From Deltaproteobacteria bacterium (GTDB taxonomy: Bacteria > JAMCPX01): DNA of 64,000 nucleotides. The DNA lies in NCBI GenBank assembly GCA_023382265.1, contig JAMCPX010000030.1:1-64000 (forward strand). Reading direction: 5' to 3'. Positions 16,683 through 54,427 of this stretch are shown here, in pieces. The notes beneath the pieces are model-generated. The model was not told where the DNA came from. It did no database searches and saw only the letters and a list, made by a program, of their open reading frames with translations. Position numbers and translations under genes: made by a program. Each line of letters begins with the position of its first letter. Position 1 is the first letter of the stretch.

Positions 16683-18227
16683 TCAGTGATCCGGTCTTTT
16701 ATCAACAACATACTCAGCCTTGATACCTGTTTTTGCAAACAGATCTGTTTCTATCGCCTTTTCATCCTTCTCAAAGATAATCTCATCGGGCGTGAGTTCT
16801 ATAAAGGCCTTAACTCTGTGGTTAAGAGCTTCTTTTACCGTATCCTCCTGCGCATCTTTATGAATGCTAATCCTAAGTTTTATAACGTCCATGGAGAATG
16901 GATCATTTTGTGATTTCTTATTAATGATAATCTGGAAGCTTGAGACCCCTGGTGTATCCCGCACCGCAGTTATGAAATCAGGCAGAAGCACCTTCGTCCC
17001 TCTGATCTTTGTAAAATCTTTGTCATACCTTATAATTGGAGGGTACATCCTCGGCGCGGTAAGCCCGCATCTCGGACATCTATCATAAGAAATCCCGCCT
17101 TTTACGAGATCACCAGTCCAGTACCGTGTGAATACTGTGCCCCTCCAGCCTATATGACTGAATACGAGTATCCCCGGCTCACCTTCTTTAACAGGTTTTT
17201 TGGTTACCGGATCAAGCAATTCCCAGAAATAAAATCTTGGATCAAGATGAATACCGCAGTCATAGTCTGGTTCAATGAATGCCCATTTTAATTCTGTAGA
17301 GCCGTAGGAGCAGATGATTCTGAATTTAGGATGTGCACCTAATTTTCTCGCGAGATCAAGTATATAAGCCTCGAGCTCAGGGCTTACACCTTCAGCGCCG
17401 AGTATTACGCCTTCAAAAAAGGGAAGATCAGGAATGTCTCCATGATCATGCATGTCTGCCGCCTTTCTCAGCCAGTAAACCAGATAAGATGGAACAGAAG
17501 TTATGCCATTAAACCTGCCCTGTGCAAAGATTCTTATCTGTTGATCGGTTGGTATGACCTTGCCGCCAAACGAATCAAAACTCGAAACACCGACAAATAT
17601 CTTAGTAAGCACAGCCTGGAAAAAAGCAAGATGTGGTGCACCGGGAAATGTATTAAAGTTGATCTTATCAAAGGTTGCTCTTGGTGCATCCGCCTGCATG
17701 TCCTTTGGTTCAATGAATACCATGTAAGCAATCTCATTAAGGATTTTTTTCATATCATAGGATGTATAAACAGCAGGTGTAGGATCCCCTGTTGATCCTG
17801 CACTTGCATGAAAGTGAAGAGGAAACCATTCTTGTGTAACCCTTCTTGTAATCTTGTCTTTAAGGCTCATGTTTCTGTATTGGGATACCTTGTCTACAGG
17901 GATATTAAATATTGCCTGTAAAAGATATTTTATTAGGAGCCGTTTATCTATCATTGCTGTATCATATGCCGTAAGAGATTCTTTTGTAGGGAATTTGGGT
18001 TGAAGAATAAATGCGCGCGGGTCTTTTCTATAATCTGTCTTTGTAATCAAAGGCAGATTTATAAAGTCTTCATAGGTCTTGAGCATATCGGGATTAATCC
18101 CCATCTCTTTATATGTTTTCCTTATATACGGGTGGTATGGGTAAACATAATGTTTAATGTAATGTAGCAATCTTTCGATGCTCTCTTTTTTTTGTTTCCG
18201 GGGACTAAGTTTTAAGAATTTATTCAT
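16683..18227 (-). CDS. Phenylacetate-CoA ligase-like AMP-forming enzyme
   Basis: A 514-residue member of the PaaK/CapK branch of the adenylate-forming superfamily. The phosphate loop is 'HASAGSTGDPTPAVYT', the adenine-site motif is 'CSYGSTELKWAF', and the A8-type region is 'FTRYWTGDLVKGG'. A 'CPRCG' pair follows it. Such enzymes activate aromatic or other carboxylic acids to CoA thioesters. The start at 18227 has AGGAGGGG just upstream. It is divergent from the acyl-CoA dehydrogenase gene across 69 bases, so it probably supplies the acyl-CoA used by that operon. The substrate cannot be read from sequence. Confidence 0.82.
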   Translation of the reverse strand: MNKFLKLSPRKQKKESIERLLHYIKHYVYPYHPYIRKTYKEMGINPDMLKTYEDFINLPLITKTDYRKDPRAFILQPKFPTKESLTAYDTAMIDKRLLIKYLLQAIFNIPVDKVSQYRNMSLKDKITRRVTQEWFPLHFHASAGSTGDPTPAVYTSYDMKKILNEIAYMVFIEPKDMQADAPRATFDKINFNTFPGAPHLAFFQAVLTKIFVGVSSFDSFGGKVIPTDQQIRIFAQGRFNGITSVPSYLVYWLRKAADMHDHGDIPDLPFFEGVILGAEGVSPELEAYILDLARKLGAHPKFRIICSYGSTELKWAFIEPDYDCGIHLDPRFYFWELLDPVTKKPVKEGEPGILVFSHIGWRGTVFTRYWTGDLVKGGISYDRCPRCGLTAPRMYPPIIRYDKDFTKIRGTKVLLPDFITAVRDTPGVSSFQIIINKKSQNDPFSMDVIKLRISIHKDAQEDTVKEALNHRVKAFIELTPDEIIFEKDEKAIETDLFAKTGIKAEYVVDKRPDH

Positions 18228-18248
18228 AAGCCCCTCCTTTTTATATGC

Positions 18249-18278
18249 TTTATATGTTTTTATTGACATTTATGTCAA
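18249..18278 (-). promoter_or_regulatory. Consensus-like promoter of the CoA-ligase gene
   Basis: On the minus strand, TTGACA (18278-18273), an 18-base spacer and TATAAA (18254-18249). The start codon at 18227 lies 21 bases beyond the -10 box with a good ribosome site between them. The -35 box is part of a perfect palindrome. Confidence 0.65.
18263..18278. promoter_or_regulatory. Palindromic operator candidate
   Basis: TTGACATTTATGTCAA is a perfect 7-2-7 inverted repeat centred in the 69-base divergent region between the CoA-ligase and acyl-CoA dehydrogenase genes. It overlaps the -35 box of the ligase promoter and offers a TTGACA in the other direction too. A dimeric repressor bound here could control both sides. 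No regulator gene lies next to it. Confidence 0.5.
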
Positions 18279-18296: not shown

Positions 18297-19517
18297 ATGT
18301 TTGATTCATTTTTATCACAGGAATATAATGCTATAAAAGAGAATGCACACAGGTTTGCACTCAATAATATAAAGCCCGTTGCTCAGCAATTGGATAACGA
18401 AGAATTAAAACCTTATGATATAGCAAAAAGGGCTGTGAGAGAGCTATTCGGCGGGGATAGTATTAATAGCGTAGAAGAACTTATGGAGCTTTACAAAGAT
18501 CGTGACATATTAAGTGCAAGCCTTATTTCTATTGAACTCGCTAAGATGGCACCCGCAATTGTAATGGCAATAGGTGCAAGTATAGAACTATGCGGGGCAA
18601 CAATCCTGTTTAAAGGTTCAGAAGAGCAAAAGATCAAGTATGCTTTACCGCTCTTTAAAGGAGAAAAAGTTGGCTGTTTTGGTTTAACAGAGCCGGATGC
18701 AGGTAGTGATGTGATGAGCCTTAAGACAAAGGCAGTAAGGCAGGGAGATTATTACATTATCAGCGGTACAAAAACCTTTATAACAAACGCACCCGATGCG
18801 GATGTTTTTATAGTGTATGCGAGATCCGATCCGAATGCATCAGGCCACAAAGGTATTACCGCATTTATCCTTGAGAGAGGCATGTATGGGTTATCAACAA
18901 GTAAACCTCTCAATAAAATGGGATTAAGGGGTTCACCAACGGGCGAGATATATATGGATGAGGTTAGGGTGCCTGCAACAAACATTGTAGGTAAGGAGCA
19001 TAAGGCGTTTTATGAACTCATGGATACCTTAAGAATAGAGCACACAACACTCCCGTCTATGGCAATCGGCATTATGGAGAGGGTCCTTGACGATTCAATA
19101 AGGTATGCGAAACAACGCGTTCAGTTTGGTCAGAATATTATCTTTTTTGAAGGCATACAGTTTAAGCTCGCAAGGATGTACGTAGCATTGCAGCATAGCT
19201 ATGCAATATTATTTTTACTTACACAGTTGTATAAGAACGGCAAAGATATTACAGCACTTGCAAGTGCAGCAAAGGTGTATACCTCTGAAGAGGCTGTTAA
19301 TGCCTGCCTTGATGCCATACAGATACACGGCGGTTATGGTTACATGAGGGAGTATGAGATTGAGCGGTTTATGCGGGATGCAAAGCTGCTTGAGATTGGG
19401 GCAGGCACCACAGAGATACAGCTTTTGATCATTACACGTTCACTTATGATGACCGAGACTTTTTATTATAATCCCATATTCACACCCGATGATAAATCGG
19501 AGAGTGGTTATATATGA
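18297..19517 (+). CDS. Acyl-CoA dehydrogenase
   Basis: A 406-residue FAD enzyme with family signatures 'CFGLTEPDAGSDVMSLKT' and 'QIHGGYGYMREYEIERFMRDAKLLEIGAGTTEIQ'. It oxidises an acyl-CoA to the 2-enoyl-CoA and passes electrons to ETF. In the second signature, the residue before the GGYGY motif is His ('QIHGGYGY'), as in many family members. A GGAGAT ribosome site overlaps the short space before ATG. It is the first gene of an operon with the thiolase-fold, DUF35 and MaoC genes; the next ORF overlaps its stop (ATGA). Confidence 0.95.
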   Translation: MFDSFLSQEYNAIKENAHRFALNNIKPVAQQLDNEELKPYDIAKRAVRELFGGDSINSVEELMELYKDRDILSASLISIELAKMAPAIVMAIGASIELCGATILFKGSEEQKIKYALPLFKGEKVGCFGLTEPDAGSDVMSLKTKAVRQGDYYIISGTKTFITNAPDADVFIVYARSDPNASGHKGITAFILERGMYGLSTSKPLNKMGLRGSPTGEIYMDEVRVPATNIVGKEHKAFYELMDTLRIEHTTLPSMAIGIMERVLDDSIRYAKQRVQFGQNIIFFEGIQFKLARMYVALQHSYAILFLLTQLYKNGKDITALASAAKVYTSEEAVNACLDAIQIHGGYGYMREYEIERFMRDAKLLEIGAGTTEIQLLIITRSLMMTETFYYNPIFTPDDKSESGYI

Positions 19518-20683
19518 ACGTTAATATGCTCGGTGCAGCAATATCCGAGATCAAGGCGAATCTTTCCGGTACTGTAAAAGAGATGGTCTCCGATGTTTTT
19601 TTTAAGGCTGTCAAGGATGCAGGACTTGAACCTCAAGATGTGGACGGGTTATTTATCACCCCTATGAGCTTTGCTGGTATGTCATCCGCCATGCTTGCAT
19701 GTAACTTGTCTGATTATCTTGGTTTAAATTTAAAAAGCCTTTCGCTGGTTGAATGCGGAGGTACGTCATCAACAGATGCATTACATTACGCTATAGACGA
19801 GATCCTCCTCAAAAGGAATAAAATAAATATTGTAATAGGAATTGATGTTAAGTTTGATCCATTTGAAGATATTGAATATGGCATACCGAATGCCGTTATT
19901 ACGCAACATGCATTATATGGCGTTCATTTTGCACAGTATGGTATTGGAACACCTGTGCCTTTTTATGCAATGAGCGCCCAGAGATATATTTATGAGTATA
20001 ATATAAATCCATGGGAGGCTGCACATCTTCCCGTTATCCTGAGAGACAATGCTATAAAAAATCTCTATGCACAATTTAAAACCCGGATAACAATTGATGA
20101 TGTGCTGAATTCACGCGTGATCTCACCACCGTTAAGGTTACTTGATTGTTCTACATTTTCAACAGGTGCTGCTGCATGCGTACTTGGAGCAGAAGAAATA
20201 AAATGTAAGAAACCGGCAGTCAGGATCAAAGGTATTGGTGAGTATCATCACGCATCTAATTTTATTCCATACAATGGAAGCATTACGACATTTGAAAGCT
20301 TAATCAAATCGGCACACGAAGCGTATGAAGAGGCAGGTATAAAACCGGAGGATGTGGATGTAGCAGAGGTATACGGTGTGTTTTCATATACGGAACTGAT
20401 GATCTATGAGGATCTTGGATTTTTCAAGAAGGGTGATGCCGTCCATCATGTCAAAGATGGTGAAACAAAGATCGATGGAGATATTCCAATCAACACCAGC
20501 GGCGGCAGGCTTTCAATTGGGCACCCTGCAGGTGCAACGCCGTTGATAGAGCTTGCCGAAATTTTATGGCAGTTACGCGGAGAGGCAGGAGAGAGACAGG
20601 TAAAAAATCCGGACATAGGGCTTGTTCATGCAGAGCATGGTATGCTAAACGGGAGTATGGTTATAATACTTGAGAGGGTCTGA
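19514..20683 (+). CDS. Thiolase-fold protein (lipid-transfer/aldolase-like), catalytic cysteines absent
   Basis: A 389-residue thiolase-superfamily protein. The 'GHPAGATPLIELAEI' His motif is present. At the usual nucleophile site ('CaSG') it reads 'ECGGTSSTDAL', so the Cys position is Gly, with a Cys two residues earlier. The C-terminal Cys motif is replaced by 'EHGMLNGSMVI'. This pattern fits non-decarboxylating relatives such as the Ltp2-type retro-aldolases, which pair with a DUF35 partner; the next gene, starting within this stop (TGATG), is a DUF35 protein. Likely reaction: C-C cleavage or another Claisen/aldol step on an acyl-CoA. A conventional thiolase role is less likely. Confidence 0.85.
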   Translation: MNVNMLGAAISEIKANLSGTVKEMVSDVFFKAVKDAGLEPQDVDGLFITPMSFAGMSSAMLACNLSDYLGLNLKSLSLVECGGTSSTDALHYAIDEILLKRNKINIVIGIDVKFDPFEDIEYGIPNAVITQHALYGVHFAQYGIGTPVPFYAMSAQRYIYEYNINPWEAAHLPVILRDNAIKNLYAQFKTRITIDDVLNSRVISPPLRLLDCSTFSTGAAACVLGAEEIKCKKPAVRIKGIGEYHHASNFIPYNGSITTFESLIKSAHEAYEEAGIKPEDVDVAEVYGVFSYTELMIYEDLGFFKKGDAVHHVKDGETKIDGDIPINTSGGRLSIGHPAGATPLIELAEILWQLRGEAGERQVKNPDIGLVHAEHGMLNGSMVIILERV

Positions 20684-21105
20684 TGGATATACCTTTTACG
20701 CTAAAGGTTTACAATGAAAAATCGTTGAGTTATTATGGTGACGATATTACAAAAAAGTTTTTTGAAAGACTCAAGAGCAAAGAGTTTTCAACTGTTAGAT
20801 GTAAGAAATGCGGTAAGATTTTGTTACCGCCAAAACCATTTTGTGATATGTGTTATGGCAGTAAATTGGAATGGGTGCAATTGCCTTCAAGTGGTCGTTT
20901 GTATGCATTTACACAGCAGGGCAAGGCGTTCAGATTCTCTACGCCGGATGTTATAGGTATTGTTGAATTTGACAATAGATGCCGCATTCTAACACGAATC
21001 AATGGTAGATACGAAGATTTAAAAATAGGGATGCAGGTAGAACTTGAATTTTTAGAACTTGAACAAGGCGTTGTATTACATCAGTTTAAGCTTGTTCATA
21101 AATAA
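20683..21105 (+). CDS. DUF35 OB-fold/zinc-ribbon acyl-CoA partner protein
   Basis: A 140-residue protein with an N-terminal rubredoxin-like zinc ribbon (CxxC pairs 'CKKCGK' and 'CDMC', about residues 44-65) and a C-terminal OB-fold ('GRLYAFTQQGKAF...VIGIVEFDNRCRILTRING'). This is the DUF35 family, which binds acyl-CoA and forms obligate complexes with thiolase-fold enzymes. Its ATG overlaps the stop of the thiolase-fold gene, indicating coupled synthesis of a complex. Confidence 0.92.
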   Translation: MDIPFTLKVYNEKSLSYYGDDITKKFFERLKSKEFSTVRCKKCGKILLPPKPFCDMCYGSKLEWVQLPSSGRLYAFTQQGKAFRFSTPDVIGIVEFDNRCRILTRINGRYEDLKIGMQVELEFLELEQGVVLHQFKLVHK

Positions 21106-21128: not shown

Positions 21129-21569
21129 ATGGCAGTAGATAAAAAATTTATAGGTAAAAAATATCCTCCGGTAGAATATGAGGTATGTAAAGAGAAGATA
21201 AAGGAGTATGCAACAGCAATCGGCGATCTTAACTCTTTATATTTTGATGAAGCAAAAGCAAAGGAAAGCCCCTATAAGGGTATTGTAGCTCCGCCAATGT
21301 TTGTTGTTGTGTATGCAAAGGATGTTTTAAGTCAGGCTTTGTTTGACCATGATATGTCGTTGGATGTAGCAATGCTGGTACACGGAGAACAGGAGTATGA
21401 ATTTATTGAACCTGTAAGGCCTGGAGATGTGATTGTTACGGAAGGATATATCTCTGATATTTATGAAAAGAGCGACAAGGATTTCGTTGTAGTAGGGAGT
21501 ATCTCAAAGAGGAAATCTGATAACGGTATCGTAAGTAAAGGCAAGTGGACATTTGTCATAAGAAGGTAA
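21129..21569 (+). CDS. MaoC-like dehydratase subunit (FAS1-DH type)
   Basis: A 146-residue hot-dog-fold protein of the HadA/HadC-like 'N-terminal half of MaoC dehydratase' type ('EYATAIGDLNSLYFDEAKAK', 'APPMFVVVY', 'VHGEQEYEFIEPVRPGD'). Such subunits usually lack a complete active site and pair with a HadB-like subunit, encoded here directly downstream. A strong AGGAGG site precedes the ATG. Expected role: hydration of a 2-enoyl-CoA made by the upstream dehydrogenase. Confidence 0.88.
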   Translation: MAVDKKFIGKKYPPVEYEVCKEKIKEYATAIGDLNSLYFDEAKAKESPYKGIVAPPMFVVVYAKDVLSQALFDHDMSLDVAMLVHGEQEYEFIEPVRPGDVIVTEGYISDIYEKSDKDFVVVGSISKRKSDNGIVSKGKWTFVIRR

Positions 21570-21581
21570 AAGGAGGTGCAT

Positions 21582-21977
21582 ATGTCTTTAAATGCAAAAG
21601 TAGGTGATACGTTTACTCTTCAGAAAGATGTTGATAAGTACAGGCCCATTTTTTACGCAGGAGCATCAGGCGATTTTAACCCAATACATATAGACGCTGA
21701 ATTCGGCAAGATGGTAGGACTCGGAGGTGCGATTCTTCAAGGGCTTTGTACCATGGCTTTTGTGATGCAAACGGTTTCTGAGTGGGTGCAAGATCCTTAT
21801 AAGGTAAAAAGGCTTAAGGTAAGATTTGCAAAGCCTGTACTGCCGGAGGACACGGTGATGATAACAGGCAGGGTGACAAAGATAGAAAATAATAAAGCTT
21901 ATTGTGAACTTATAGCAAAAAGACAAACAGGCGATGAGGTTATAAATAATGCATTTACAGAAGTAGATATGGGTTAG
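21582..21977 (+). CDS. MaoC-like dehydratase, catalytic subunit (HadB type)
   Basis: A 131-residue hot-dog hydratase with the catalytic Asp-x4-His signature in 'GASGDFNPIHID', followed by 'GLGGAILQGLCTMAFV'. The ATG at 21582 is chosen over an in-frame GTG at 21576 because AGGAGG (21571-21576) would then be correctly spaced. With the preceding subunit it should form a heteromeric (R)-type enoyl-CoA hydratase. It is the last gene of the operon. Confidence 0.9.
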   Translation: MSLNAKVGDTFTLQKDVDKYRPIFYAGASGDFNPIHIDAEFGKMVGLGGAILQGLCTMAFVMQTVSEWVQDPYKVKRLKVRFAKPVLPEDTVMITGRVTKIENNKAYCELIAKRQTGDEVINNAFTEVDMG

Positions 21978-22167: not shown

Positions 22168-23766
22168 ATGAGTCTTAAAGGTACAGTAACAAGAAATGGC
22201 GACAGGTATCTCGTATCTGTAAATCCAGCAAACCTTGAACCCATCGGTGAACTCAAGATCATGGGTGATGAGGAAATAAAAAAAAAGGTGAATAACGCTG
22301 ATATCGCGTTCGTTTTATGGTCTAAACTGACAATAGATCAAAGATCGGAATACCTTATCGCTGTAAAGGATTACATAATAAAGCATTATGATGACATTAC
22401 AGAGATTATATCAAAAGAGATGGGTAAACCAAGGATAGAAGCAGCTATTGCAGAGTTGATGCTTGTTGTGGATTTGATAGATTACTTTGTAAAAAGGGCT
22501 GAAAAATTGCTTGGAGATGAACCTATCAAGCTGCACCTTGCAAAGGCCATAAAATCAAGCAAAATCAACTTCAGACCTTACGGGGTTATTGCCGTTATTT
22601 CCCCGTGGAACTATCCGTTTGCCATACCAATGAGTGAAATAGTGCTTGCACTGCTTGCGGGTAATACCATTGTGTTTAAGCCCGCATCGGATGTTATCTT
22701 TATCGGAAAGAAGATAGAAGAGATCTTTCGTGCGGTAAACCTGCCGGAAGGCGTATTTAATCTTATAATAGGTCCCGGGAGTTCTGTTGGTAAAAGTATG
22801 ATAGGTCCCAAAATAAGGAAGGTCGTATTTACAGGTAGTGTGCCTGTTGGCAAGCAGGTAATGGAAACTGCCTCCAGATATCTTATACCAGTTGTGCTTG
22901 AGCTTGGCGGTAAAGATCCGATGATCGTATGTGAAGATGCAAATATAGAGCTTGCAGCTAATGGAGCAGTATGGGGGGCTTTTACTAATGCAGGACAGGT
23001 ATGTGCATCGATAGAGCGTGTTTATGTTATGGAAAAGGCTGCGGATGAATTTATTAAAAAGGTTGTAGAAAAAACGATAAAGATAAGGGTGGGAGAGGAT
23101 AACGGGTTCGATGTAGAAATGGGACCTATGGTAAATGAGGGACAGCTGCATATTGTCGAGGATCAGGTTTTAGATGCCAGGGGTAAGGGGGCAAAGATTC
23201 TTACAGGTGGAGAAAGAATAAAAGATATGAAAGGTTTTTTCTATCCCCCAACCGTTCTTACAGAGGTAAATGACAAAATGGATTGTATGACAGAAGAGAC
23301 GTTCGGGCCGCTGCTTCCTATAATGATTGTAAAAGATGAAAAACAGGCAATAGAACTTGCAAATGATACTGTGTATGGATTAACAGCATCGGTGTGGACA
23401 AAAGATAGAGATAAGGGAGAGAGAATCGCGCGTGAGCTAAATGCCGGAACTGTTACAGTAAACGAACATGCATATACTTACGGTTTGCCGGAAACGCCAT
23501 GGGGTGGGATCAAGGATAGCGGCATAGGCAGGACTCACTCTAAGATAGGATTAATGGAAATGGTTATTCCATATCATATAAATATAGATCACCTTCCCGA
23601 TAGTATGACATGGAGACCGTGGTTTTATCCTTATTCCAAAGAGAAGTATGAATTTTTTAAAAGATCAACTTCGGCGTTTGGCACAGGTATAGGAGAAAAA
23701 ATAAAAAACCTTGCGGGACTCGCTAGTTTGTTGTTAAGTTCAACTACTCGGAAAAAAATATTTTAG
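22168..23766 (+). CDS. Aldehyde dehydrogenase
   Basis: A 532-residue NAD(P)-dependent aldehyde dehydrogenase. Hallmarks are 'SPWNYPFAIP', 'FTGSVPVGKQV', the general-base Glu in 'LELGGKDP', and the nucleophilic Cys in 'NAGQVCASIERVYV'; 'EETFGPLLPI' follows. A C-terminal extension of roughly 60 residues ends in a hydrophobic/basic segment, suggesting weak membrane association as in fatty-aldehyde enzymes. A GGGAGG site precedes the ATG. The 190-base gap from the MaoC genes suggests its own promoter. It may oxidise the aldehyde released by the upstream aldolase-like enzyme, which is inference. Confidence 0.93.
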   Translation: MSLKGTVTRNGDRYLVSVNPANLEPIGELKIMGDEEIKKKVNNADIAFVLWSKLTIDQRSEYLIAVKDYIIKHYDDITEIISKEMGKPRIEAAIAELMLVVDLIDYFVKRAEKLLGDEPIKLHLAKAIKSSKINFRPYGVIAVISPWNYPFAIPMSEIVLALLAGNTIVFKPASDVIFIGKKIEEIFRAVNLPEGVFNLIIGPGSSVGKSMIGPKIRKVVFTGSVPVGKQVMETASRYLIPVVLELGGKDPMIVCEDANIELAANGAVWGAFTNAGQVCASIERVYVMEKAADEFIKKVVEKTIKIRVGEDNGFDVEMGPMVNEGQLHIVEDQVLDARGKGAKILTGGERIKDMKGFFYPPTVLTEVNDKMDCMTEETFGPLLPIMIVKDEKQAIELANDTVYGLTASVWTKDRDKGERIARELNAGTVTVNEHAYTYGLPETPWGGIKDSGIGRTHSKIGLMEMVIPYHINIDHLPDSMTWRPWFYPYSKEKYEFFKRSTSAFGTGIGEKIKNLAGLASLLLSSTTRKKIF

Positions 23767-23776
23767 GAGGTAAGTA

Positions 23777-24355
23777 ATGATTATTCAGGCAACAGCGATA
23801 AGGGTAGGGATGGTTATAGAGTTCAACAAGGATCTATACAGTGTTATGTACGTCAATCATGTTACACCTGGTAACTGGCGCGGCATGGTACAGACGAAGC
23901 TTAAAAATTTGAAAACAGGATCTAACCTTGAGAACAGATTTAGGCCGGAGGATAAAGTAGAAAAGGCTAACCTTGATGAGAAAGAGATGGAGTATATATA
24001 CAAAGATGGCGATCACTATGTATTTATGGATACAGAGACTTATGAACAGCTTATGTTAGGAGAAGATGTGATAGGTGAAGAAATGTATTATATAGTTCCA
24101 AACGCAAAGGTAAAAATAGTATTTTATGAGGGTAAACCTGTTAGTGTAGAATTGCCGCTTACAGTAGAGCTTGATGTTGTTGAAACAGAGCCTAATCTGA
24201 AAACGGCTACAATTACAAACACGACAAAGACCGCCAGACTTGAAACTGGACTTGTTGTACAGGTACCTCCGTTTGTGGAAACCGGAGCAAGAATCAAGAT
24301 AGATACTGCGGAAGGCAAATATGTGGAGCGCGTACAAAAAAGTAAAAAGGAGTAG
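23777..24355 (+). CDS. efp: Elongation factor P
   Basis: A 192-residue EF-P with the KOW-like N-domain, two OB domains and the C-terminal signature 'VVQVPPFVETGARIKIDT'. It helps ribosomes through polyproline stretches. The tip loop reads 'VTPGNWRGMV' where E. coli has 'VKPGKGQAFA', so the modified Lys34 position is Asn and the following residues differ. It is therefore not a substrate for EpmA-type lysylation or Arg rhamnosylation. It follows the aldehyde dehydrogenase gene by ten bases and has a strong ribosome site. Confidence 0.95.
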   Translation: MIIQATAIRVGMVIEFNKDLYSVMYVNHVTPGNWRGMVQTKLKNLKTGSNLENRFRPEDKVEKANLDEKEMEYIYKDGDHYVFMDTETYEQLMLGEDVIGEEMYYIVPNAKVKIVFYEGKPVSVELPLTVELDVVETEPNLKTATITNTTKTARLETGLVVQVPPFVETGARIKIDTAEGKYVERVQKSKKE

Positions 24356-27429: not shown

Positions 27430-28392
27430 ATGGCTGAGCGCATAATTAAAGAATGGGTTCATAATCCCGGTAGACACTGTGCTTCAACTGCGATTTCCGA
27501 TCTTATGAACTTTTATGGTTATGAGTTATCCGAGCCGGAATGTTTCGGAATAGGGGAAGGCATTGGCTTTTGGTACATAGAAGGCATGGATCCTAAAAGG
27601 ATAATGCATTTTCGCTCTATTGATCTCGAAGAGCAGTTCTTCAAAAATATAGGCATAGATTTTAAATGGAATAATTCCAATAATAGCGATGAGATAAAAC
27701 AACTGCTTATTGACAGCATAAACAAGGAGATTCCCGTTCTTTTAAGGACGGACATATTTTATCTTGATTATTACAAAAGTAAAACCCATTTTCCAGGACA
27801 TACAGTCTTATTATGGGGCTATGATCCGGATAACAATACAGCTTACGTTACCGATACAGGACATGGCGGACAGATTCTGGTCCCTTTTAACCCATTGCTT
27901 GAGGCTGTTATGCACGGCAGTTTTATGAATGGCGATCAGCCGCATGTTGCACCCATAACAAAACCAATGTCAATACCCGACAAAAAGAAGTTATCCCGGT
28001 TAGCTGCATCCAATAATGCAAAGCGTATGCTTGATAATAATGATTTTGCAGGCTATGGCGTAAAGGGTATAAGCATGGCATCCCAAAAACTTTTTGAATG
28101 GGAAGAGCTTGAAGACTGGAAATGGCTGAGCCGATTTGCATATCAGGTCATAGAAAAGAGAGGTACAGGCGGCGGTGGGTTTAGAAAGATGTATTCGGAG
28201 TTTATTCAAGGATTTGCAAGAAAAGGTCTTGTTAAACTTATGGACGATATTGCATCAAGATGGTCGGAGCTTGCTCATGTATTCAAGAGCATCAGCGAAT
28301 CTTCAGAACCTGATTTTACGATGGCATCCGATATGCTTTATATTCAAGCTATAAGAGAAGAAGAATTCTATTCTCACCTCACAACCGTCTGA
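27430..28392 (+). CDS. BtrH_N/DUF4872-type protein (papain-like fold)
   Basis: A 320-residue protein. Residues ~12-160 resemble the BtrH N-terminal domain: Cys in 'GRHCASTAISDLMNFYG', 'FGIGEGIGFWYI', and 'FPGHTVLLWGYD' with a likely catalytic His. The C-terminal half is helical, like the associated DUF4872. In butirosin biosynthesis BtrH transfers an acyl group from a carrier protein. No carrier or antibiotic genes are near, so the substrate is unknown. A GAGGTGAT ribosome site precedes the ATG. Its last 19 bases overlap the convergent phosphatase gene. Confidence 0.75.
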   Translation: MAERIIKEWVHNPGRHCASTAISDLMNFYGYELSEPECFGIGEGIGFWYIEGMDPKRIMHFRSIDLEEQFFKNIGIDFKWNNSNNSDEIKQLLIDSINKEIPVLLRTDIFYLDYYKSKTHFPGHTVLLWGYDPDNNTAYVTDTGHGGQILVPFNPLLEAVMHGSFMNGDQPHVAPITKPMSIPDKKKLSRLAASNNAKRMLDNNDFAGYGVKGISMASQKLFEWEELEDWKWLSRFAYQVIEKRGTGGGGFRKMYSEFIQGFARKGLVKLMDDIASRWSELAHVFKSISESSEPDFTMASDMLYIQAIREEEFYSHLTTV

Positions 28393-44780: not shown

Positions 44781-46082
44781 ATGTATGATTTTATAATAGT
44801 TGGTGCAGGGATAGCAGGGCTTGAACTTGGGGCTATGCTTGGTCAGGATGGATATAGAGTGCTTGTGCTTGAGCAGGCACAGCATGTTGGCGGCAGAGCA
44901 TTTATACATGAGAAGGACGGGTTTATCCTTGATAATGGAATACACCTTGTACGGTTTGGTAAAAAAAGTGCAATCGCAAAGGTAATAAACCGCATCGGCG
45001 GTAATATTGAATTTAAACAACTCGGTAAATCATATTTTGTTGATCAGAACAATAACTTTGTTTTATTCCCCACGAGTCCGTCAGGTTTCTTTAAAAGTGA
45101 GATGTTTACAATCGCAGAACGGCTTAAGGCTTTGTTCGTCATGCTGCAGATAAAAATGAACAAATATAAGGATACGGAAAATCTTACCGTATCGGATTGG
45201 ATGGTTAATGAACATATACAAAAAGGATTGAAAAGATATTTTTCACTTGTTTCAGGCTCGATGCTTGTGTGCCCCGATATTGCCGTTGCATCGCTCAGTG
45301 CATTAACAGAGAATATAAGTAAGGTTTTAAAAACAGGCATATCTGTAGAATATCCATTACATGGCTGGGCAAAAGATATAATAGAGCCTATTACAAACAA
45401 GATAAAACAGAGTGGAGAGATCAGAGTAAACAGCAAGGTTAGATCTGTAATCATTGAGAATGGCAGGGCAACGGGTGTCAGGCTTAGCAATGATAATATA
45501 AAGGCAAATAATATTATTATTGATGTCCCATCACAGTATATCGACGAGATACTTGATACAGGTTTAATTCATGATAACAGCTTAAAAAATGCGTCAAACC
45601 TTGTTCCTACTGCAGGGATATCAATAGATTATGCGTTAGACGGTATTATAAGTGATATTGATGGATTGATTTATTTTGAAGATCCTTTAAGTTTTGGCTG
45701 TTTTGTATCCAGCCTTTCATCAAATGTTGCACCTAAAGATAAATCTTTGTTAACATGGTTTTGCCCAATTGTGCATGAGAAAATAAAGAATGATGCCGTT
45801 GTAAAAGGATATCAGGACAGGCTTGAAAAAAAGATAGAGTCCGTATTCCCTGAAATAAAGAGAAGGGCTATATTTAAACGCGTTTTACATTTTGATATGG
45901 TTGATGGCGTAGAATTAAATATAAATCAACTGAGACAAAAAAGGATCAATTTTGCATTAAATGGAGTAGAGAATCTTTATTTTGTTGGGGATACTACGTC
46001 TGCCCGTGGAGCAGGCGGAGATGTTGCACATGAGTCAAGCATTGAATGCTATGAAGAGATAACCGGTAAAACAGTCAAATGA
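44781..46082 (+). CDS. FAD-dependent amine-oxidase/phytoene-desaturase-like oxidoreductase
   Basis: A 433-residue flavoprotein with the dinucleotide fold 'DFIIVGAGIAGLELGAML', 'VLVLEQAQHVGGRAF' and the C-terminal FAD motif 'ENLYFVGDTTSARGAGGDVAHESS'. It belongs to the NAD(P)/FAD amine-oxidase superfamily that includes phytoene desaturases and protoporphyrinogen oxidases. No carotenoid gene is near, so the substrate is unknown. Its stop overlaps the following metallophosphoesterase gene (ATGA). Confidence 0.85.
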   Translation: MYDFIIVGAGIAGLELGAMLGQDGYRVLVLEQAQHVGGRAFIHEKDGFILDNGIHLVRFGKKSAIAKVINRIGGNIEFKQLGKSYFVDQNNNFVLFPTSPSGFFKSEMFTIAERLKALFVMLQIKMNKYKDTENLTVSDWMVNEHIQKGLKRYFSLVSGSMLVCPDIAVASLSALTENISKVLKTGISVEYPLHGWAKDIIEPITNKIKQSGEIRVNSKVRSVIIENGRATGVRLSNDNIKANNIIIDVPSQYIDEILDTGLIHDNSLKNASNLVPTAGISIDYALDGIISDIDGLIYFEDPLSFGCFVSSLSSNVAPKDKSLLTWFCPIVHEKIKNDAVVKGYQDRLEKKIESVFPEIKRRAIFKRVLHFDMVDGVELNINQLRQKRINFALNGVENLYFVGDTTSARGAGGDVAHESSIECYEEITGKTVK

Positions 46083-47146
46083 AGAAAGCCATAAAACTTG
46101 TTGTGAGTGATTTACATCTCGGGAGGGGACCCACGTTTGATGACGGTATAAAAAATCCGTATGAGGATTTCTGGTTTGATGGAAGCTTCGCAGAATTCGT
46201 AGAATATTACACCGCAGGGCAGTACAGGGATTTTAATGTTGAACTTATAATCAACGGCGATTTTGTTAATCTTCTTCAGCCTGATATACTTATTGACGGT
46301 GTTACAATCACGGAACCCGACAGCATGCTTATGCTGCAGAGGGTCCTCAATGGCCACGCCGTATTTTTTGAAACGCTTAAACAATTCATGAACCAGCCGG
46401 AACATCAGCTCAGCTTTATAATAGGAAATCATGATCAGGGATTTTTGTGGTATAGGATAGAAGCATTATTAAAAAATGAGATTTCAGAGAGGATTATGTT
46501 TTATCCGCGTTCCAGAAGCTTCGATGGTATATACATAGAACATGGGAATCATTACGATATGCTGAATGGCTTTGATGTTAAGGAATATTCAGAAAAGGAC
46601 TTTGAAGGCAGACGCGTTCTTAATATACCATGGGGCAGCTATTTTGTCATGACCTTTATTTATCCGAGGAAGAAAAAAATACCATATCTTGATAAGATTA
46701 AACCATTAAGAAAATATATAAGATGGGGGCTTTTATTCGATACGGTGAATACACTCAAGATCGTATCTCGGATGGTACTCTTCTATTTTAGAAACAGGTT
46801 TCACAGGGATCCGCAGAGAAGAAAAAAATTTAGTATCAACATTGAACACATAATGGAATCTCTAAGATTAAATTCGTTGACAGAAGTTGCGATATCCATT
46901 CTCAGGCACACAAACTACAGGGTTGTTATATTTGGACACAGCCATAAAGCAATGCACATAGAATTAGAAGGCAAAGAATATATCAACACGGGCACATGGA
47001 CAGAAATGATAAATATGAATATTGAAAACCTCGGCAGGCATACAAGACTTAATTATGCGTTGATTGATTATAGAGTGAATCCTGTCGGCGTAACTTTACG
47101 GGAATGGCATGGTAAACATAAAATAGAAGAGGTTTCATCATTTTAA
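46079..47146 (+). CDS. Calcineurin-type metallophosphoesterase (LpxH-like superfamily)
   Basis: A 355-residue protein with all five metal motifs: 'VSDLHLGRG', 'IINGDFVNL', 'IIGNHDQGF', 'IEHGNHYD' and 'VIFGHSHKA'. The superfamily includes UDP-2,3-diacylglucosamine hydrolases, and the position before lipopolysaccharide genes hints at envelope work. It is larger than LpxH, with a basic central insertion that could bind membranes. The substrate is not proven. It abuts the O-antigen-ligase-like gene with no spacer. Confidence 0.85.
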   Translation: MKKAIKLVVSDLHLGRGPTFDDGIKNPYEDFWFDGSFAEFVEYYTAGQYRDFNVELIINGDFVNLLQPDILIDGVTITEPDSMLMLQRVLNGHAVFFETLKQFMNQPEHQLSFIIGNHDQGFLWYRIEALLKNEISERIMFYPRSRSFDGIYIEHGNHYDMLNGFDVKEYSEKDFEGRRVLNIPWGSYFVMTFIYPRKKKIPYLDKIKPLRKYIRWGLLFDTVNTLKIVSRMVLFYFRNRFHRDPQRRKKFSINIEHIMESLRLNSLTEVAISILRHTNYRVVIFGHSHKAMHIELEGKEYINTGTWTEMINMNIENLGRHTRLNYALIDYRVNPVGVTLREWHGKHKIEEVSSF

Positions 47147-48400
47147 ATGATAAGTATATTTGATATCAAATGGCTGTTTCTTTTTTTTGTTGGTGCAATA
47201 TATCTATCTATTTCTCTGTATGAAGCGGTGCTCGTATTAATCATTCTTATCTTTTTACTGCGATTCAGCACCATTCCAAAACATCGATTTGCAGGCTCAT
47301 TAACCATTCCCGTTTTCTTGTTTTTTATTGGCATGATCCTGCCTACAATGTTGTTTGAAACTCATTCGAAATATGCGATGCAGGCCGTAATAAGGGCTGT
47401 TTTTGCGTTGATCTACTTTCCGGCACTTCTTCTTGATACCGCGGATGAAAAACTGCTGAAAAAGTATGCTTTCATTATCCTGACAGGCGGGATGCTGTTT
47501 TCCGCAGCTGCATATATAAAATTCTTTCTATTAATGCCACAACATGCCAGCGGGTTATGGGGCAGCGGTTTTGAGCTGGGCAATCTGGTATCACTGTCAA
47601 TGTGTATATCTCTTGCTTTTTTGTTTTCGATAAAAAAAAGCACAAATAAAATACTCATGTTCACTGCCTTTGCTTTTATGTTTGGAGCTATTGTACTGAC
47701 TTTTGAACGAACAGCATGGTTAGACGTTTTCTGGGGTATTGCGTTTTTCTTTTTTGCCGTGCAGCATAAAATAAAAGTAAAACCCGCTGTCCTCATAACC
47801 GGTATATTAAGTATACTCCTATTATTTTCCATACTACTGTCTGTGTTTGCAAAGCATGATCCAAGATTCGTGATTTTAAAGAAAATAATAATAAATCATA
47901 ATATCAGTTTACATGAAATAAACATACTGAGTTCCGACCGCCTCTATAAATTAAAGGCATCCATAGCTATCATAAAACACGATATTGATATGAAGCATTA
48001 TGCACCCCTCATTCTTGGACACGGGTTCAGGGCAGGGTCAACTCTGTCGCAATACTATGGTTCACAACCGGTTAAAACATCTTTCGAATCCATCTCTTTT
48101 TTAGGTGAATACATAGATACGGGCATTATAGGTATTCTTTATATGTTGTTTATCTATGGTGCATTTATTAAACTCATTTTCAGGGTGAGAAACCTCCATC
48201 CGAAGTCGCAGGAATCCGGGTTTTTGCTTACCGGGCTTACGGCAGGGGTAGGTGCTTACTTTTTCGGCTCTCTGTTTAATATGTTTGCGACCTCTCCATT
48301 TTTTTATTACCTGTTCTTGTTCGGCGTTATTGAACGTTCAGTAAGGTACTTTACTCCCATAACTAACGGAAATCCCCGTTTGGATGGAAAGCCTCTATGA
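47147..48400 (+). CDS. O-antigen ligase/polymerase-like membrane protein
   Basis: A 417-residue protein with about ten membrane segments and a large periplasmic loop. The Wzy_C/WaaL signatures are 'TFERTAWLDVFWG' in a helix and 'PLILGHGFRAGSTLSQYYG' in the loop. Such proteins join O-antigen chains to lipid A-core or polymerise repeat units. It starts immediately after the phosphoesterase stop and overlaps the next glycosyltransferase by four bases, within the glycan operon. Confidence 0.8.
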   Translation: MISIFDIKWLFLFFVGAIYLSISLYEAVLVLIILIFLLRFSTIPKHRFAGSLTIPVFLFFIGMILPTMLFETHSKYAMQAVIRAVFALIYFPALLLDTADEKLLKKYAFIILTGGMLFSAAAYIKFFLLMPQHASGLWGSGFELGNLVSLSMCISLAFLFSIKKSTNKILMFTAFAFMFGAIVLTFERTAWLDVFWGIAFFFFAVQHKIKVKPAVLITGILSILLLFSILLSVFAKHDPRFVILKKIIINHNISLHEINILSSDRLYKLKASIAIIKHDIDMKHYAPLILGHGFRAGSTLSQYYGSQPVKTSFESISFLGEYIDTGIIGILYMLFIYGAFIKLIFRVRNLHPKSQESGFLLTGLTAGVGAYFFGSLFNMFATSPFFYYLFLFGVIERSVRYFTPITNGNPRLDGKPL

Positions 48401-49476
48401 AAGTTACATTTATATTGCCCGGGTTTCCACGGAAACCCGTCGGAGGTTTCAGGGTTGTTTATGAGTATGCTAATCATCTGGCAGCACGGGGGCATGATGT
48501 CTATATTGTGCACCATTGGGCTCATTCAAAACCAGCCACCGTATTTCATTCACTCGGCAGCTTTACCACGTACGTTAAAGATGTACTTAGAATCCGTCAT
48601 GCGATCAAGAAATGGCAGCCGCTCAGCAGACAGGTTAAGGTACTATGCGTCCACGATATCACGACGAGTTCTATTCCTGACGGCGACGCTGTTTTTGCTA
48701 CGGCATGGCAAACCGCTGAATCTGTGATGCAGTTACCGGGCAGAAAGGGGAAAAAATTTTACATGGTAATGGATTTTGGCGATTATTTTGGGCCACAAGA
48801 GGAATTGAAAAAAACGTGGAAGTTTCCTTTAAAGAAGATAGCAATCTCCCGATGGATTTTTAATAATGTTGCTGTGATTGCGGGTACGGAAAATCTAACC
48901 TACATACCTCTTGGTATTAACCATAAAATATTTCATATAAAAAATAACACTGATAACAGACCTTACCACTTAGCGATGATGTATGCGCCGGGTTATTACA
49001 AAGCTGCGGAAGACGGTATAGCGGCAATGGAGATCTGCAAAATACGGTATCCTGATTTAAAGGCTGTCGTATTCGGGAATACGGGCTCTTCATCGAGGAA
49101 CTCACAATGGATAAATTATGAATATAGGGTTAGTAATCGTGAACTTGTACAAATATACAATAGTTCACGGATCTTTATAAGCAGTAGTATAGGCGAGGGG
49201 TTTGCATTTCCTTCTGCTGAGGCAATGGCATGCGGGTGTGCGGTAGCATCAACCGATTGCGGCGGCAATAGAGACTATGCGGAGGATGGGGTGACTGCTT
49301 TATTATCGCCGCCTAATAACCCTAAAGCTCTGGCAGATAATGTACTGAAGCTCTTAAATAATGAGGGCGTAAGAAAAAGGATTTCTATAGCAGGCTTTGA
49401 ACGTATACAGGAATTCAAATGGTACAGGAGTGCAGAGTTGTTGGAAAATGTTTTGCTGGAACGCACAAGAGCATAA
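48397..49476 (+). CDS. Glycosyltransferase family 4 protein
   Basis: A 359-residue GT-B glycosyltransferase. The N-terminal fold begins 'MKVTFILPGFPRKPVGGFRVVYEYANHLA'-like (glycine-rich acceptor loop). The C-terminal nucleotide-sugar site is 'SSIGEGFAFPSAEAMACGCAVASTDCGGNRDYAEDG', with the E-x7-E pattern. It probably adds a hexose to lipopolysaccharide. It overlaps the ligase-like gene by four bases. Confidence 0.88.
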   Translation: MKVTFILPGFPRKPVGGFRVVYEYANHLAARGHDVYIVHHWAHSKPATVFHSLGSFTTYVKDVLRIRHAIKKWQPLSRQVKVLCVHDITTSSIPDGDAVFATAWQTAESVMQLPGRKGKKFYMVMDFGDYFGPQEELKKTWKFPLKKIAISRWIFNNVAVIAGTENLTYIPLGINHKIFHIKNNTDNRPYHLAMMYAPGYYKAAEDGIAAMEICKIRYPDLKAVVFGNTGSSSRNSQWINYEYRVSNRELVQIYNSSRIFISSSIGEGFAFPSAEAMACGCAVASTDCGGNRDYAEDGVTALLSPPNNPKALADNVLKLLNNEGVRKRISIAGFERIQEFKWYRSAELLENVLLERTRA

Positions 49477-49500
49477 AGATTGTTATGAAAGAGATCACTT

Positions 49501-50673
49501 ATGGATAAAATGCCCTGTGTCGGGATTTTGAGGGAGAAAAATATCAATCCATGGGAAATTCAGAATTACATTCCCTTAAGGGATAAGATGGATATTGTAT
49601 TGTTTATGCCCAATGATAATGGTTTTGATATTACGGGTATTGATCTACCGGTATATAACCTTAATAAACTTTCAGAGACCACGTACAATGTTTTTCATCC
49701 GGTTAAGTATATTAAACGGGCTTTCAGCTCACACTTCGAAAAGGTTTTTTATTATCCAAACGAGATAGAGAAGAAGGCCAATACTCTTAACATACTTCAT
49801 ACCGTTGATTTAAAAGCAAGGATGACCTACACAGGCGCATATCTAAAGGGGAAACACGGGTTCAAGTTGATCGTCACGGTATGGGAAAATATTCCATTCC
49901 TGTATAAAAATAAGCCCCGCTGGCAGAAAATGAGATCATTTATACTTCAACACGCCGATGGTATTATTGCTGTAACGCAGGGTGCCAAAGAGGCACTTCT
50001 GATTGAGGGGGTACCGGAGCATAAAATTACTCTGATACACTATGGAATAGATGTGAATGCATTTAAGCCTTTGGAAAGAGAAGCGATATATTCCGATCGA
50101 TTCCGCATAAAAGATAAAGAAAGGATCATACTTTTTATTGGAAGACTTGTTCCCGAAAAGGGTATTTATCAATTACTCTTTGCAGCAAGATACCTTTTAT
50201 CAGGAGATATGGGTTTTCCAGTCAAATTGTTTATAGTGGGAACAGGCAGAGAACGGGATCTCATAACACAACTTATCAGGGAATGGGGGCTGGAAGAAAA
50301 GATCGTTCTTATTCCATACATACCTTATCACGAACTTCCACACCTCTATAATCTTGCCGATATATTTGTGCTTCCAAGCTTTCCCACAAGTGAATGGCAA
50401 GAGCAATTCGGTATGGTTTTGCTTGAGGCAATGGCAAGCGGGAAGGCAATTGTCGGTTCAACTTCGGGTGCAATTCCGGAGGTGTTGGGTGATGCCGGTT
50501 TACTCGTTCCTTCCGGTGATTGGATAGCCCTTGCCAATGTATTAAAAAGACTTTTAGAGGACGAAACGCTGCGGAATAAATTAGGTGCTAAGGCAGCAGA
50601 TCTTGCAAAAGAAAAATACGATTCTCGGAAAATCGCACAACAAATCTATCTCTTTTATAAAAAGTTCATCTAA
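49501..50673 (+). CDS. Glycosyltransferase family 4 protein
   Basis: A 390-residue GT-B enzyme. Visible motifs are 'FIGRLVPEKGIYQLLFAA' at the start of the C-terminal domain, 'YIPYHELPHLYNLADIFVLPS' and 'EQFGMVLLEAMASGKAIVG' with the E-x7-E pair. Part of the glycan operon; donor and acceptor unknown. The next GT2 gene starts 13 bases after its stop. Confidence 0.9.
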   Translation: MDKMPCVGILREKNINPWEIQNYIPLRDKMDIVLFMPNDNGFDITGIDLPVYNLNKLSETTYNVFHPVKYIKRAFSSHFEKVFYYPNEIEKKANTLNILHTVDLKARMTYTGAYLKGKHGFKLIVTVWENIPFLYKNKPRWQKMRSFILQHADGIIAVTQGAKEALLIEGVPEHKITLIHYGIDVNAFKPLEREAIYSDRFRIKDKERIILFIGRLVPEKGIYQLLFAARYLLSGDMGFPVKLFIVGTGRERDLITQLIREWGLEEKIVLIPYIPYHELPHLYNLADIFVLPSFPTSEWQEQFGMVLLEAMASGKAIVGSTSGAIPEVLGDAGLLVPSGDWIALANVLKRLLEDETLRNKLGAKAADLAKEKYDSRKIAQQIYLFYKKFI

Positions 50674-50686
50674 CGGAGAATATGCA

Positions 50687-51619
50687 ATGGGGACAAGCAT
50701 CGTAATAACGAGCTGGAACGGGAAGGAAAGACTGAAAATATCACTTCCTTCCATAATGCACGCATGGGAAAGCCACCCGGAAGTTATTCGTGAAATAATA
50801 GTTGTTGATGATGCTTCCAGTGATGATACGGAAGAGTTTCTGCGATTGCAATTCCCACAGATTAGAATGATTAAAAATAAACAAAACCGTGGTTTTATTT
50901 ACTCAAGTAACAAAGGCGTTCATGAGGCTCGGGAAGATATTGCAGTTCTACTCAACAATGATGTGACAGTGAGTAATAATTTTTTAGATGCTGTTATCCC
51001 TAATTTTGATGATTCATCCGTATTTGCCGTCACTTTTAGATCTCTGGGAGACGATGAGAAAACCTTCCGGGAAGGTGGAAAGAGCATGGTGTTTTCTTTA
51101 GGCTTCCCGCATATTAGACATGCTTTAAGGCATCAAGCGGAGAACAACAAATATTCTTTGTATGCTGTAGGTGGGCACTGCGCAGTAAGAAAACAGATGT
51201 TTCTTGCTCTTGGTGGATTTGATGAACTTTTCCATCCAGGCTACTGGGAAGATGTGGACATATCATGGAGGGCATGGAAAAACGGATGGAAGGTGCTTTA
51301 CGAACCGGAAAGTGTAGTTTATCATAAAGAGATCAGTACAATGAAAACCTCCTTCAAGCGTTTTACACTCAAAACCATTAAAGCGAGGAATCGTTTGCTT
51401 TTTATCTGGAAGAATATCAGTTCACCATTTCTTATGTCAGAACATATCTTTTTTCTTGTTATTAGAACCGTTACATCTATAATTACATTGGATATTTATT
51501 TTTATCCTGCCTTATTTTCTGCCCTCAGGTTACTGCCCCTTGTTTTTAAAAGGCGAAAAACAGAAGAGTTTAATGGGAATATGTCTGATAGGACTACTAT
51601 AAGGATTGGAAGGGATTGA
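50687..51619 (+). CDS. Glycosyltransferase family 2 protein
   Basis: The ATG at 50687 with GGAGAA upstream is chosen over an in-frame upstream ATG that lies inside the previous gene; it gives 310 residues. GT-A motifs: 'SIVITSWNGKERLKISLPS', 'IIVVDDASSDDTEEFL', 'AVLLNNDVTVSNNF' (the metal-binding DxD is 'NND'-like) and 'GYWEDVDISWRAWKNGWK'. This resembles rhamnosyltransferase-type enzymes. It ends the first glycan operon; a new promoter-like sequence follows. Confidence 0.88.
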   Translation: MGTSIVITSWNGKERLKISLPSIMHAWESHPEVIREIIVVDDASSDDTEEFLRLQFPQIRMIKNKQNRGFIYSSNKGVHEAREDIAVLLNNDVTVSNNFLDAVIPNFDDSSVFAVTFRSLGDDEKTFREGGKSMVFSLGFPHIRHALRHQAENNKYSLYAVGGHCAVRKQMFLALGGFDELFHPGYWEDVDISWRAWKNGWKVLYEPESVVYHKEISTMKTSFKRFTLKTIKARNRLLFIWKNISSPFLMSEHIFFLVIRTVTSIITLDIYFYPALFSALRLLPLVFKRRKTEEFNGNMSDRTTIRIGRD

Positions 51620-51666
51620 ATCAAACCAGGATTCTTTATAAACTGCCGGTGAAGAACTGGTATTAT

Positions 51667-51695
51667 TTGACATAAAGTTATTAATTCATTATTTT
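51667..51695 (+). promoter_or_regulatory. Candidate promoter for the Trm112-like/heptosyltransferase genes
   Basis: TTGACA (51667-51672), a 17-base spacer and TATTTT (51690-51695) lie between the GT2 gene and the Trm112-like gene. The -10 is only 4 of 6. Confidence 0.4.
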
Positions 51696-51728
51696 ACAAA
51701 TATATCTCAATATTGAGGAAGGATGATG

Positions 51729-51908
51729 ATGGCTATAAGCAAAGAGCTTCTTGATATACTTGCATGTCCACAGTGCAAGGGTGATCTTGAACTTGAAAAA
51801 GATGAAAAGGGCCTTATCTGCCGCAGGTGTAATCTCAAATACACTATTGCGGATGACATACCCGTGATGCTGGTTGATGAGGCAATAAAGCTAAATGAAC
51901 AAAAATGA
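51729..51908 (+). CDS. Trm112-family small zinc-ribbon protein
   Basis: A 59-residue protein of the Trm112/YcaR type: 'LLDILACPQCKGDLELEKDEKGLICRRCNLKYTIADDIPVMLVDEA' contains two CxxC zinc pairs. Three tandem ATGs occur; the third (51729) has the best spacing from GAGGAAGG. Bacterial members often sit beside lipid A or lipopolysaccharide genes (next to lpxK in E. coli). It overlaps the heptosyltransferase gene by 14 bases, suggesting coupled translation. Confidence 0.92.
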   Translation: MAISKELLDILACPQCKGDLELEKDEKGLICRRCNLKYTIADDIPVMLVDEAIKLNEQK

Positions 51909-54370: not shown

Positions 54371-54399
54371 TTGACATCTATTGGTGATAGTTTTATCGT
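54371..54399 (+). promoter_or_regulatory. Candidate promoter of the RACo-like gene
   Basis: TTGACA (54371-54376), a 17-base spacer and TATCGT (54394-54399). It lies in the short divergent region with lptE. The TTG of the -35 box is in frame with the gene, but the ATG at 54428 is preferred as start. Confidence 0.45.
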
Positions 54400-54427
54400 T
54401 AGAAATGCACATACGGATAAAATAGTC

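Follow-up and report, generated by a model that had tools for sequence, protein, structure and literature searches.

The first 64,000 nucleotides of contig JAMCPX010000030.1 (assembly GCA_023382265.1, Deltaproteobacteria bacterium), referred to here as the window, carry on the forward strand a gene for a thiolase-fold protein (19514–20683; 389 amino acids), directly followed by a gene for a DUF35 protein (20683–21105; 140 amino acids). The stop codon of the former and the start codon of the latter share one base (i.e., 5′-TGATG-3′). An earlier note on this DNA, made from the letters alone, had described the two overlapping genes and had taken the pair for a probable acyl-CoA retro-aldolase of the Ltp2/ChsH type that had lost both thiolase cysteines. 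Judged from sequence comparisons, the two proteins probably do constitute an acyl-CoA retro-aldolase with its DUF35 subunit, from a clade that is neither Ltp2 nor Sal.

The thiolase-like protein matched Pfam Thiolase_C_1 with 153 bits (cut-off 28), and none of the NCBIfam models reached its cut-off, the best being PRK06064 (thiolase domain-containing; 250.8 bits vs. the curated 420). Its DUF35 partner combines a zf-ChsH2 ribbon with four Cys (CxxC...CxxC; 30.6 bits, cut-off 23.2) and an OB_ChsH2_C domain (47.1 bits, cut-off 27.1).

The motifs VECGGTSST, GGRLSIGHP and HAEHGMLNGS were all present in the translation of 19514–20683. Gly83 aligned with the nucleophilic Cys of solved thiolases (EAACASG in 6esq), confirming the Cys-to-Gly exchange claimed before, and the His of the GHP motif was indeed retained as His337. 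The second Cys had been looked for in the C-terminal motif; according to PMC12329534, SCP2/DUF35-type thiolases have it within HDCF and not in a C-terminal CxG motif. In the window protein, this HDCF motif (i.e., the His plus the second Cys of SCP2-type thiolases) reads YGVF, with Tyr287 aligned to the His of HDxF and Val289 to the second Cys. The second thiolase Cys is therefore absent too, albeit at a different site than the one originally named, and on the alignment this change from HDCF to YGVF is the most telling one in the protein.

With numbering verified against the PDB chains, Tyr287 corresponds to Tyr294 of TcLtp2 and Tyr302 of CtSal, and the alignment puts His337 opposite Tyr344 and Gln352, and Val289 opposite His296 and Cys304, of these two aldolases, respectively. 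In PMC12329534, Tyr294 and Tyr302 are described as the catalytic bases of TcLtp2 and CtSal, Tyr344 and Cys304 as the respective acids, and Gly89 of Sal as contacting the hydroxyl.

A scan of contigs with two conserved peptide patterns yielded 29 loci, mostly from uncultured organisms (28 metagenome-assembled genome records and one bin, HRbin19), of which 27 fell in one clade with the window protein and two (L067 and L068) were judged to lie outside it. Adding the window and four further members gave a clade set of 32, in which the clade is undercounted and motif-bearing rows are favoured because of the two patterns used. Its bacterial hosts belong to the Deltaproteobacteria/Myxococcota, Actinomycetota, Planctomycetota, Nitrospirota, Chloroflexota and Calescibacteriota, and its archaeal hosts to the Asgard archaea (Jordarchaeia and Sigynarchaeota). 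Among 386 genomes treated as relatives, including that of the window, 12 held a member at E ≤ 1e-60, with one match each. In the open-licence literature searched (papers under other licences being outside the search), no title or abstract describing this clade was found.

Throughout the 32 members, Tyr287, His337, His245, Arg332, Glu374 and His375 were each invariant, as were Glu285, Glu294, Glu299 and Gly376. The position of the HDxF His was always Tyr and the third position of that motif always Val, Ala or Pro. Gly83 was found in all 30 rows readable there, the exceptions being L061 (N-terminus out of frame) and L066 (cut at this point). Since the clade spans many phyla with these residues unchanged, a chance origin of the motif changes is excluded. 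Arg332, Glu374 and His375 moreover set the clade apart, occurring in 26/26 clade rows vs. 0/32 non-clade rows of the alignment used for phylogeny; for His245 these figures were 26/26 vs. 1/32, the single non-clade row being 4u4e.

The tree was calculated from that alignment with IQ-TREE under a mixture model (58 rows, i.e., 26 clade and 32 non-clade rows; two of the 28 clade sequences collected up to that point, L061 and L066, were omitted as incomplete). The clade was monophyletic (100/99) and joined 6ok1 (Ltp2), 9myr (CtSal), 4u4e and L023, again at 100/99, whereas all Cys/HDxF thiolases, together with further paralogues, fell on the opposite side of the split. The phylogeny suggested in the earlier note thus placed the protein with Ltp2, CtSal and 4u4e and not with true thiolases. 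Removal of five motif blocks left the split of clade plus aldolases at 100/99, and an approximately unbiased (AU) test disfavoured a grouping of the clade with thiolases to the exclusion of the aldolases (p 0.027), a modest rejection of a group that was chosen after the first tree had been seen. By these sequence data, the clade is sister to Ltp2/Sal/4u4e and separate from both Ltp2 and Sal.

TcLtp2–ChsH2 (the steroid C3 side-chain aldolase with its DUF35 partner; 6ok1) resembles the window pair in its fold, its DUF35 protein, its Gly in place of the nucleophilic Cys and its Tyr base, at 27% identity and as part of the sister group; Ltp2 itself acts on the 17-hydroxy C3 side chain of steroids, giving a ketone and propionyl-CoA. 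In contrast, TcLtp2 has YDHF where the window protein has YGVF, leaving no equivalent of His296, and its second catalytic residue Tyr344 is replaced by His337; the window clade adds Arg332, Glu374 and His375, and the window DUF35 gene is separate from the MaoC genes. Membership of Ltp2 was rejected on the residues compared, and of the Ltp2/ChsH-type assignment made earlier only the wider part stood, i.e., the aldolase side of the tree, the loss of both Cys, the Tyr base, the presence of a DUF35 partner and the likeness of the operon to the bile-acid C5 module described below. CtSal–CtShy (bile-acid C5 side-chain aldolase with DUF35; 9myr) likewise shares the Gly, the Tyr302 base and a DUF35 partner (27% identity), whereas it forms a separate clade, has Cys304 and Gln352 in place of Val289 and His337, and has a DUF35 protein with a Cys3His1 zinc ribbon that is fused to a MaoC hydratase, unlike the stand-alone, four-Cys protein of the window. 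Membership of Sal was likewise rejected on the residues compared, with the Cys304 position differing in 32/32 members. The PDB chain with the highest identity to the window protein among eight compared (33%) was 4u4e, a putative thiolase of Sphaerobacter thermophilus, which has Gly-Gly, the Tyr (in YDSF) and His at the His337 and His245 positions, lacks Arg332, Glu374, His375 and Met377, and groups with Ltp2/Sal outside the clade. Finally, 6esq (archaeal acetoacetyl-CoA thiolase with DUF35) and 7pxp (benzoylsuccinyl-CoA thiolase BbsAB) share the fold, DUF35 and the GHP His, while keeping the nucleophilic Cys and the HDxF His on the other side of the tree; neither residue nor that grouping was found for the window protein, and an SCP2/DUF35-type thiolase was rejected as well. 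What it does show are the features of thiolase-fold acyl-CoA aldolases in the broad sense, i.e., Gly for Cys, the Tyr base, a DUF35 partner and the side of the tree.

Profile matches bore out the flanking genes named in the earlier note. An acyl-CoA dehydrogenase (ACAD) gene (18297–19517, +) overlaps the thiolase-like gene by 4 nucleotides, and the DUF35 gene is followed by two MaoC genes, i.e., a HadA-like one (21129–21569, +) and a HadB-like one (21576–21977, +), and by an aldehyde dehydrogenase (ALDH) gene (22168–23766, +; a Pfam Aldedh match, with PRK09407 scoring highest among NCBIfam models but not reaching its cut-off). Taking the MaoC hydratase motif to be Asp-Asn-Pro-His, the HadB-like (R)-hydratase has it intact (SGDFNPIHID) and is likely the catalytic half, whereas the HadA-like protein has GDLNSLY instead and is likely an inert partner. 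Such a pair of an intact and a degenerate MaoC gene (21129–21977) resembles the heteromeric HadAB and ChsH1–ChsH2 hydratases. On the other strand lies a gene for a divergent PaaK/FlxY-like acyl-CoA ligase (16683–18269, –), with a weak AMP-binding match and only remote PaaK-type relatives in a PDB search. According to the open reading frame list and Pfam, the operon is without a 3-hydroxyacyl-CoA dehydrogenase, which would be expected if cleavage is aldolytic and not thiolytic. Gene order, including the ligase and the gene after the ALDH (23777–24355), which we take from its sequence to be EFP, is the same in the two nearest relatives (G003, i.e., L041, and G005, i.e., L040), where the thiolase-like proteins are 71–72% identical to that of the window and the ALDH likewise adjoins the thiolase-like/DUF35 pair. 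The operon has the same enzyme set as the module with which Proteobacteria degrade the C5 side chain of bile acids, i.e., a ligase, ACADs, the Shy hydratase, the Sal aldolase and the Sad aldehyde dehydrogenase (PMC8399759).

Neighbours were counted within 7 kb of the thiolase-like gene at the 32 loci, giving lower bounds since several contigs are short, and counts that are not independent since L057 and L058 are near-identical and the window, L040 and L041 share one operon. DUF35 was present at 28 of the 32 loci, never more than 161 bp away and always with its four Cys; it was missing in L049, L057, L058 and L079 (the Calescibacterium/HR19 group). ACADs occurred at 16 loci, ligases at 15 (the L046 match being a 42-residue fragment), ALDH at 10, MaoC and short-chain dehydrogenases/reductases (SDR) at seven each, enoyl-CoA hydratases (ECH) at six and zinc-dependent alcohol dehydrogenases (Zn-ADH) at five. 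For ALDH, the background in six member genomes amounted to approximately 24 distinct places in 16.4 Mb, or about 0.02 per 14 kb, after merging split matches and dropping one 49-residue fragment. At least two ACADs were found at seven loci (L043, L055, L059, L060, L062, L075 and L076), five of which carry a Zn-ADH, and four of those five also an ALDH. Some family seeds came from counted loci themselves (L042, L045, L053, L055 and L060). Pfam was used to check those for ligases, ADH and SDR, and the two ACAD seeds of L055 were assigned through BLAST to the window ACAD, with NCBIfam in addition for the larger one. As a side observation, paired ACADs with a Zn-ADH recur across lineages (L055 5728–12781, L059 11184–16647, L060 4869–9791, L075 and L076), this Zn-ADH being HpnZ-like (below cut-off) and the set mostly accompanied by an ALDH.

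From Gly83, Tyr287, the tree, the MaoC pair, the lack of a 3-hydroxyacyl-CoA dehydrogenase and the downstream ALDH, we infer aldolytic cleavage of a 3-hydroxyacyl-CoA. The ACAD would first dehydrogenate an acyl-CoA, and the MaoC pair would add water to give the 3-hydroxyacyl-CoA. Its cleavage by the thiolase-like protein would release an aldehyde and leave a shortened acyl-CoA; the ALDH would then oxidise the aldehyde, and the divergent ligase may re-activate the product. In the active site, the backbone NH groups of Gly82 and Gly83 would hold the 3-hydroxyl, Tyr287 would take its proton and start C–C cleavage, and His337, with the clade-specific His375 and Glu374, would hold and re-protonate the enolate thioester in place of the second Tyr of Ltp2 or the Cys of Sal.

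Several observations weigh against this assignment. The clade has no characterised member, and sequence identity is alike to thiolases and aldolases (26–33%). The AlphaFold2 model of the thiolase-like protein, built from a 27-sequence alignment (mean predicted local distance difference test score 92.9, predicted TM-score 0.93), aligned to SCP2-type thiolase-fold chains with Z 46–55 in VIA-align, the nearest being the thiolases 6esq (Z 55.0) and 7yvy (Z 52.9), ahead of PhlC (50.7) and of 9myr (50.1), 6ok1 (47.5) and 4u4e (47.0) on the aldolase side; Foldseek placed thiolases first as well. Overall fold thus failed to distinguish aldolases from thiolases: as modelled, it is clearly thiolase-type and, if anything, leans to thiolases. 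In the active site, the oxyanion Gln161 of CtSal is not kept on our own reading of the alignment, and the essential acid Cys304 of CtSal is Val, Ala or Pro in the clade. Since the C304H variant of CtSal is dead (PMC12329534), the acid must have another source in the clade. Furthermore, 22 of the 32 loci lack an ALDH within 7 kb (several of them on short contigs), and an SDR, as a possible source of a 3-ketoacyl-CoA, lies beside the gene in L042 and L075.

Aldolases are reversible, and the pair might instead run in the forward direction, as an aldol addition of an acyl-CoA enolate to a carbonyl compound (aldehyde or ketone), whose product the MaoC pair would dehydrate and the ACAD reduce in a biosynthetic pathway. 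The resemblance of the FlxY-like ligase and of a DarH-like protein (27430–28392) to products of biosynthetic genes, below cut-offs, and the occurrence of HadA/HadB-like proteins in fatty-acid synthesis would fit such a role, which we nevertheless consider unlikely given the oxidative enzyme set (with the ALDH in the operon and the recurring ALDHs, ligases and multiple ACADs across the loci) and an operon without carrier protein or ketosynthase. Other Cys-independent chemistry, e.g., decarboxylation of malonyl- or 3-ketoacyl-CoA or acyl transfer without a covalent enzyme intermediate, would be in line with a fold as near to PhlC and other acyltransferases (Z 50–51) as to Sal and with TbSLP, a Cys-less protein with YDCF that decarboxylates malonyl-CoA very slowly (PMC12329534). 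In the same paper, CtSal gave no malonyl-CoA decarboxylation, and with a clade that groups with aldolases and an operon that would deliver a 3-hydroxyacyl-CoA and not a 3-ketoacyl-CoA, we regard this chemistry as distinctly unlikely.

Loss of both thiolase Cys could also mean that the protein is catalytically dead and, as a scaffold, binds the CoA substrates of the hydratase, and DUF35/aldolase parts do bind hydratases in a heteromeric hydratase–aldolase complex (PMC8399759). A scaffold would not need the ionisable Tyr287, His337, His245, Glu374 and His375, which are kept in all members from Bacteria and Archaea alike, making this option very improbable. An active thiolase working through Cys81, which the earlier note had named as what would overturn its reading, or through another residue fares worst: Cys81 does lie two residues from the nucleophile position, in a fold nearest to a thiolase, but among the 31 rows with a residue there it is Cys in 11 and Asn in 14, YGVF offers no Cys, the tree excludes thiolases, and the genome already has strong Thiolase_N and 3HCDH_N proteins. 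A Cys81-based thiolase was rejected because this residue varies across the clade, and any active thiolase here seems barely credible. At the level of sequence, neither of the two conditions named in the earlier note as refuting its reading was borne out.

More tentatively, the clade may stand beside Ltp2 and Sal as a third family of acyl-CoA aldolases with the thiolase fold, one not concerned with steroids and spread over Bacteria and Asgard archaea. Where the other two have Tyr/Tyr or Tyr/Cys, it would have a Tyr- and His-rich site (Tyr287/His337/His375/Glu374/His245) that possibly holds a metal, and it would serve general aldolytic chain shortening with release of aldehydes in place of acyl-CoAs. 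Thiolase-fold acyl-CoA aldolases in the open papers found come almost only from steroid side-chain degradation; if the proposal is true, aldolytic chain shortening would be a wider route across Bacteria and Archaea, the clade would offer new C–C-bond catalysts, and labels such as 'acetyl-CoA acetyltransferase/thiolase' on such proteins could be corrected.

As to the substrate, KshA_C, the sole steroid marker sought, found no match in the genome (a weak negative, with none over the cut-off in the control genomes either), and the FAD_binding_2 profile was too general to pick out a ketosteroid dehydrogenase. With no KshA-type oxygenase match, nothing speaks positively for a steroid substrate. The PaaK-like ligase might, as a guess, point to an aromatic acid. 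Because the genome also encodes an ordinary thiolytic set (three or more strong Thiolase_N proteins along with two strong 3HCDH_N proteins), the aldolytic module would be an extra. The same genome (G000) has eight Thiolase_C_1 proteins and seven places with a DUF35 OB domain, six of them over the cut-off. Five of the other seven Thiolase_C_1 proteins lack the nucleophilic Cys, with GGATGG and HDAF/HDAY, or with YSGF/HTNF, and this second Cys-less group sits on a different tree branch from the window clade. These observations concern, outside the window, C1:19917–21047, C8:69412–70578, C39:43136–43579, C30:70548–71585 and C30:71696–72784.

In the window itself, no tRNA was found, and a promoter and terminator scan showed no excess over shuffled sequences (28 vs. 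a mean of 33.3, and 8 vs. 6.4). The DarH-like gene (27430–28392, +) encodes a BtrH_N/DUF4872 protein like the acyltransferase DarH (96.7 bits vs. a cut-off of 300) and, lying about 9 kb from the FlxY-like ligase gene, is a possible relative of resorcinol-lipid genes. Further downstream, a run of glycosyltransferase genes (families 1, 2 and 9; 44781–52896, +) after an amine-oxidase-like flavoprotein is probably an envelope polysaccharide locus, and a RACo-type ASKHA protein (reductive activator of corrinoid enzymes; 54371–55996, +) hints at corrinoid methyl-transfer metabolism.

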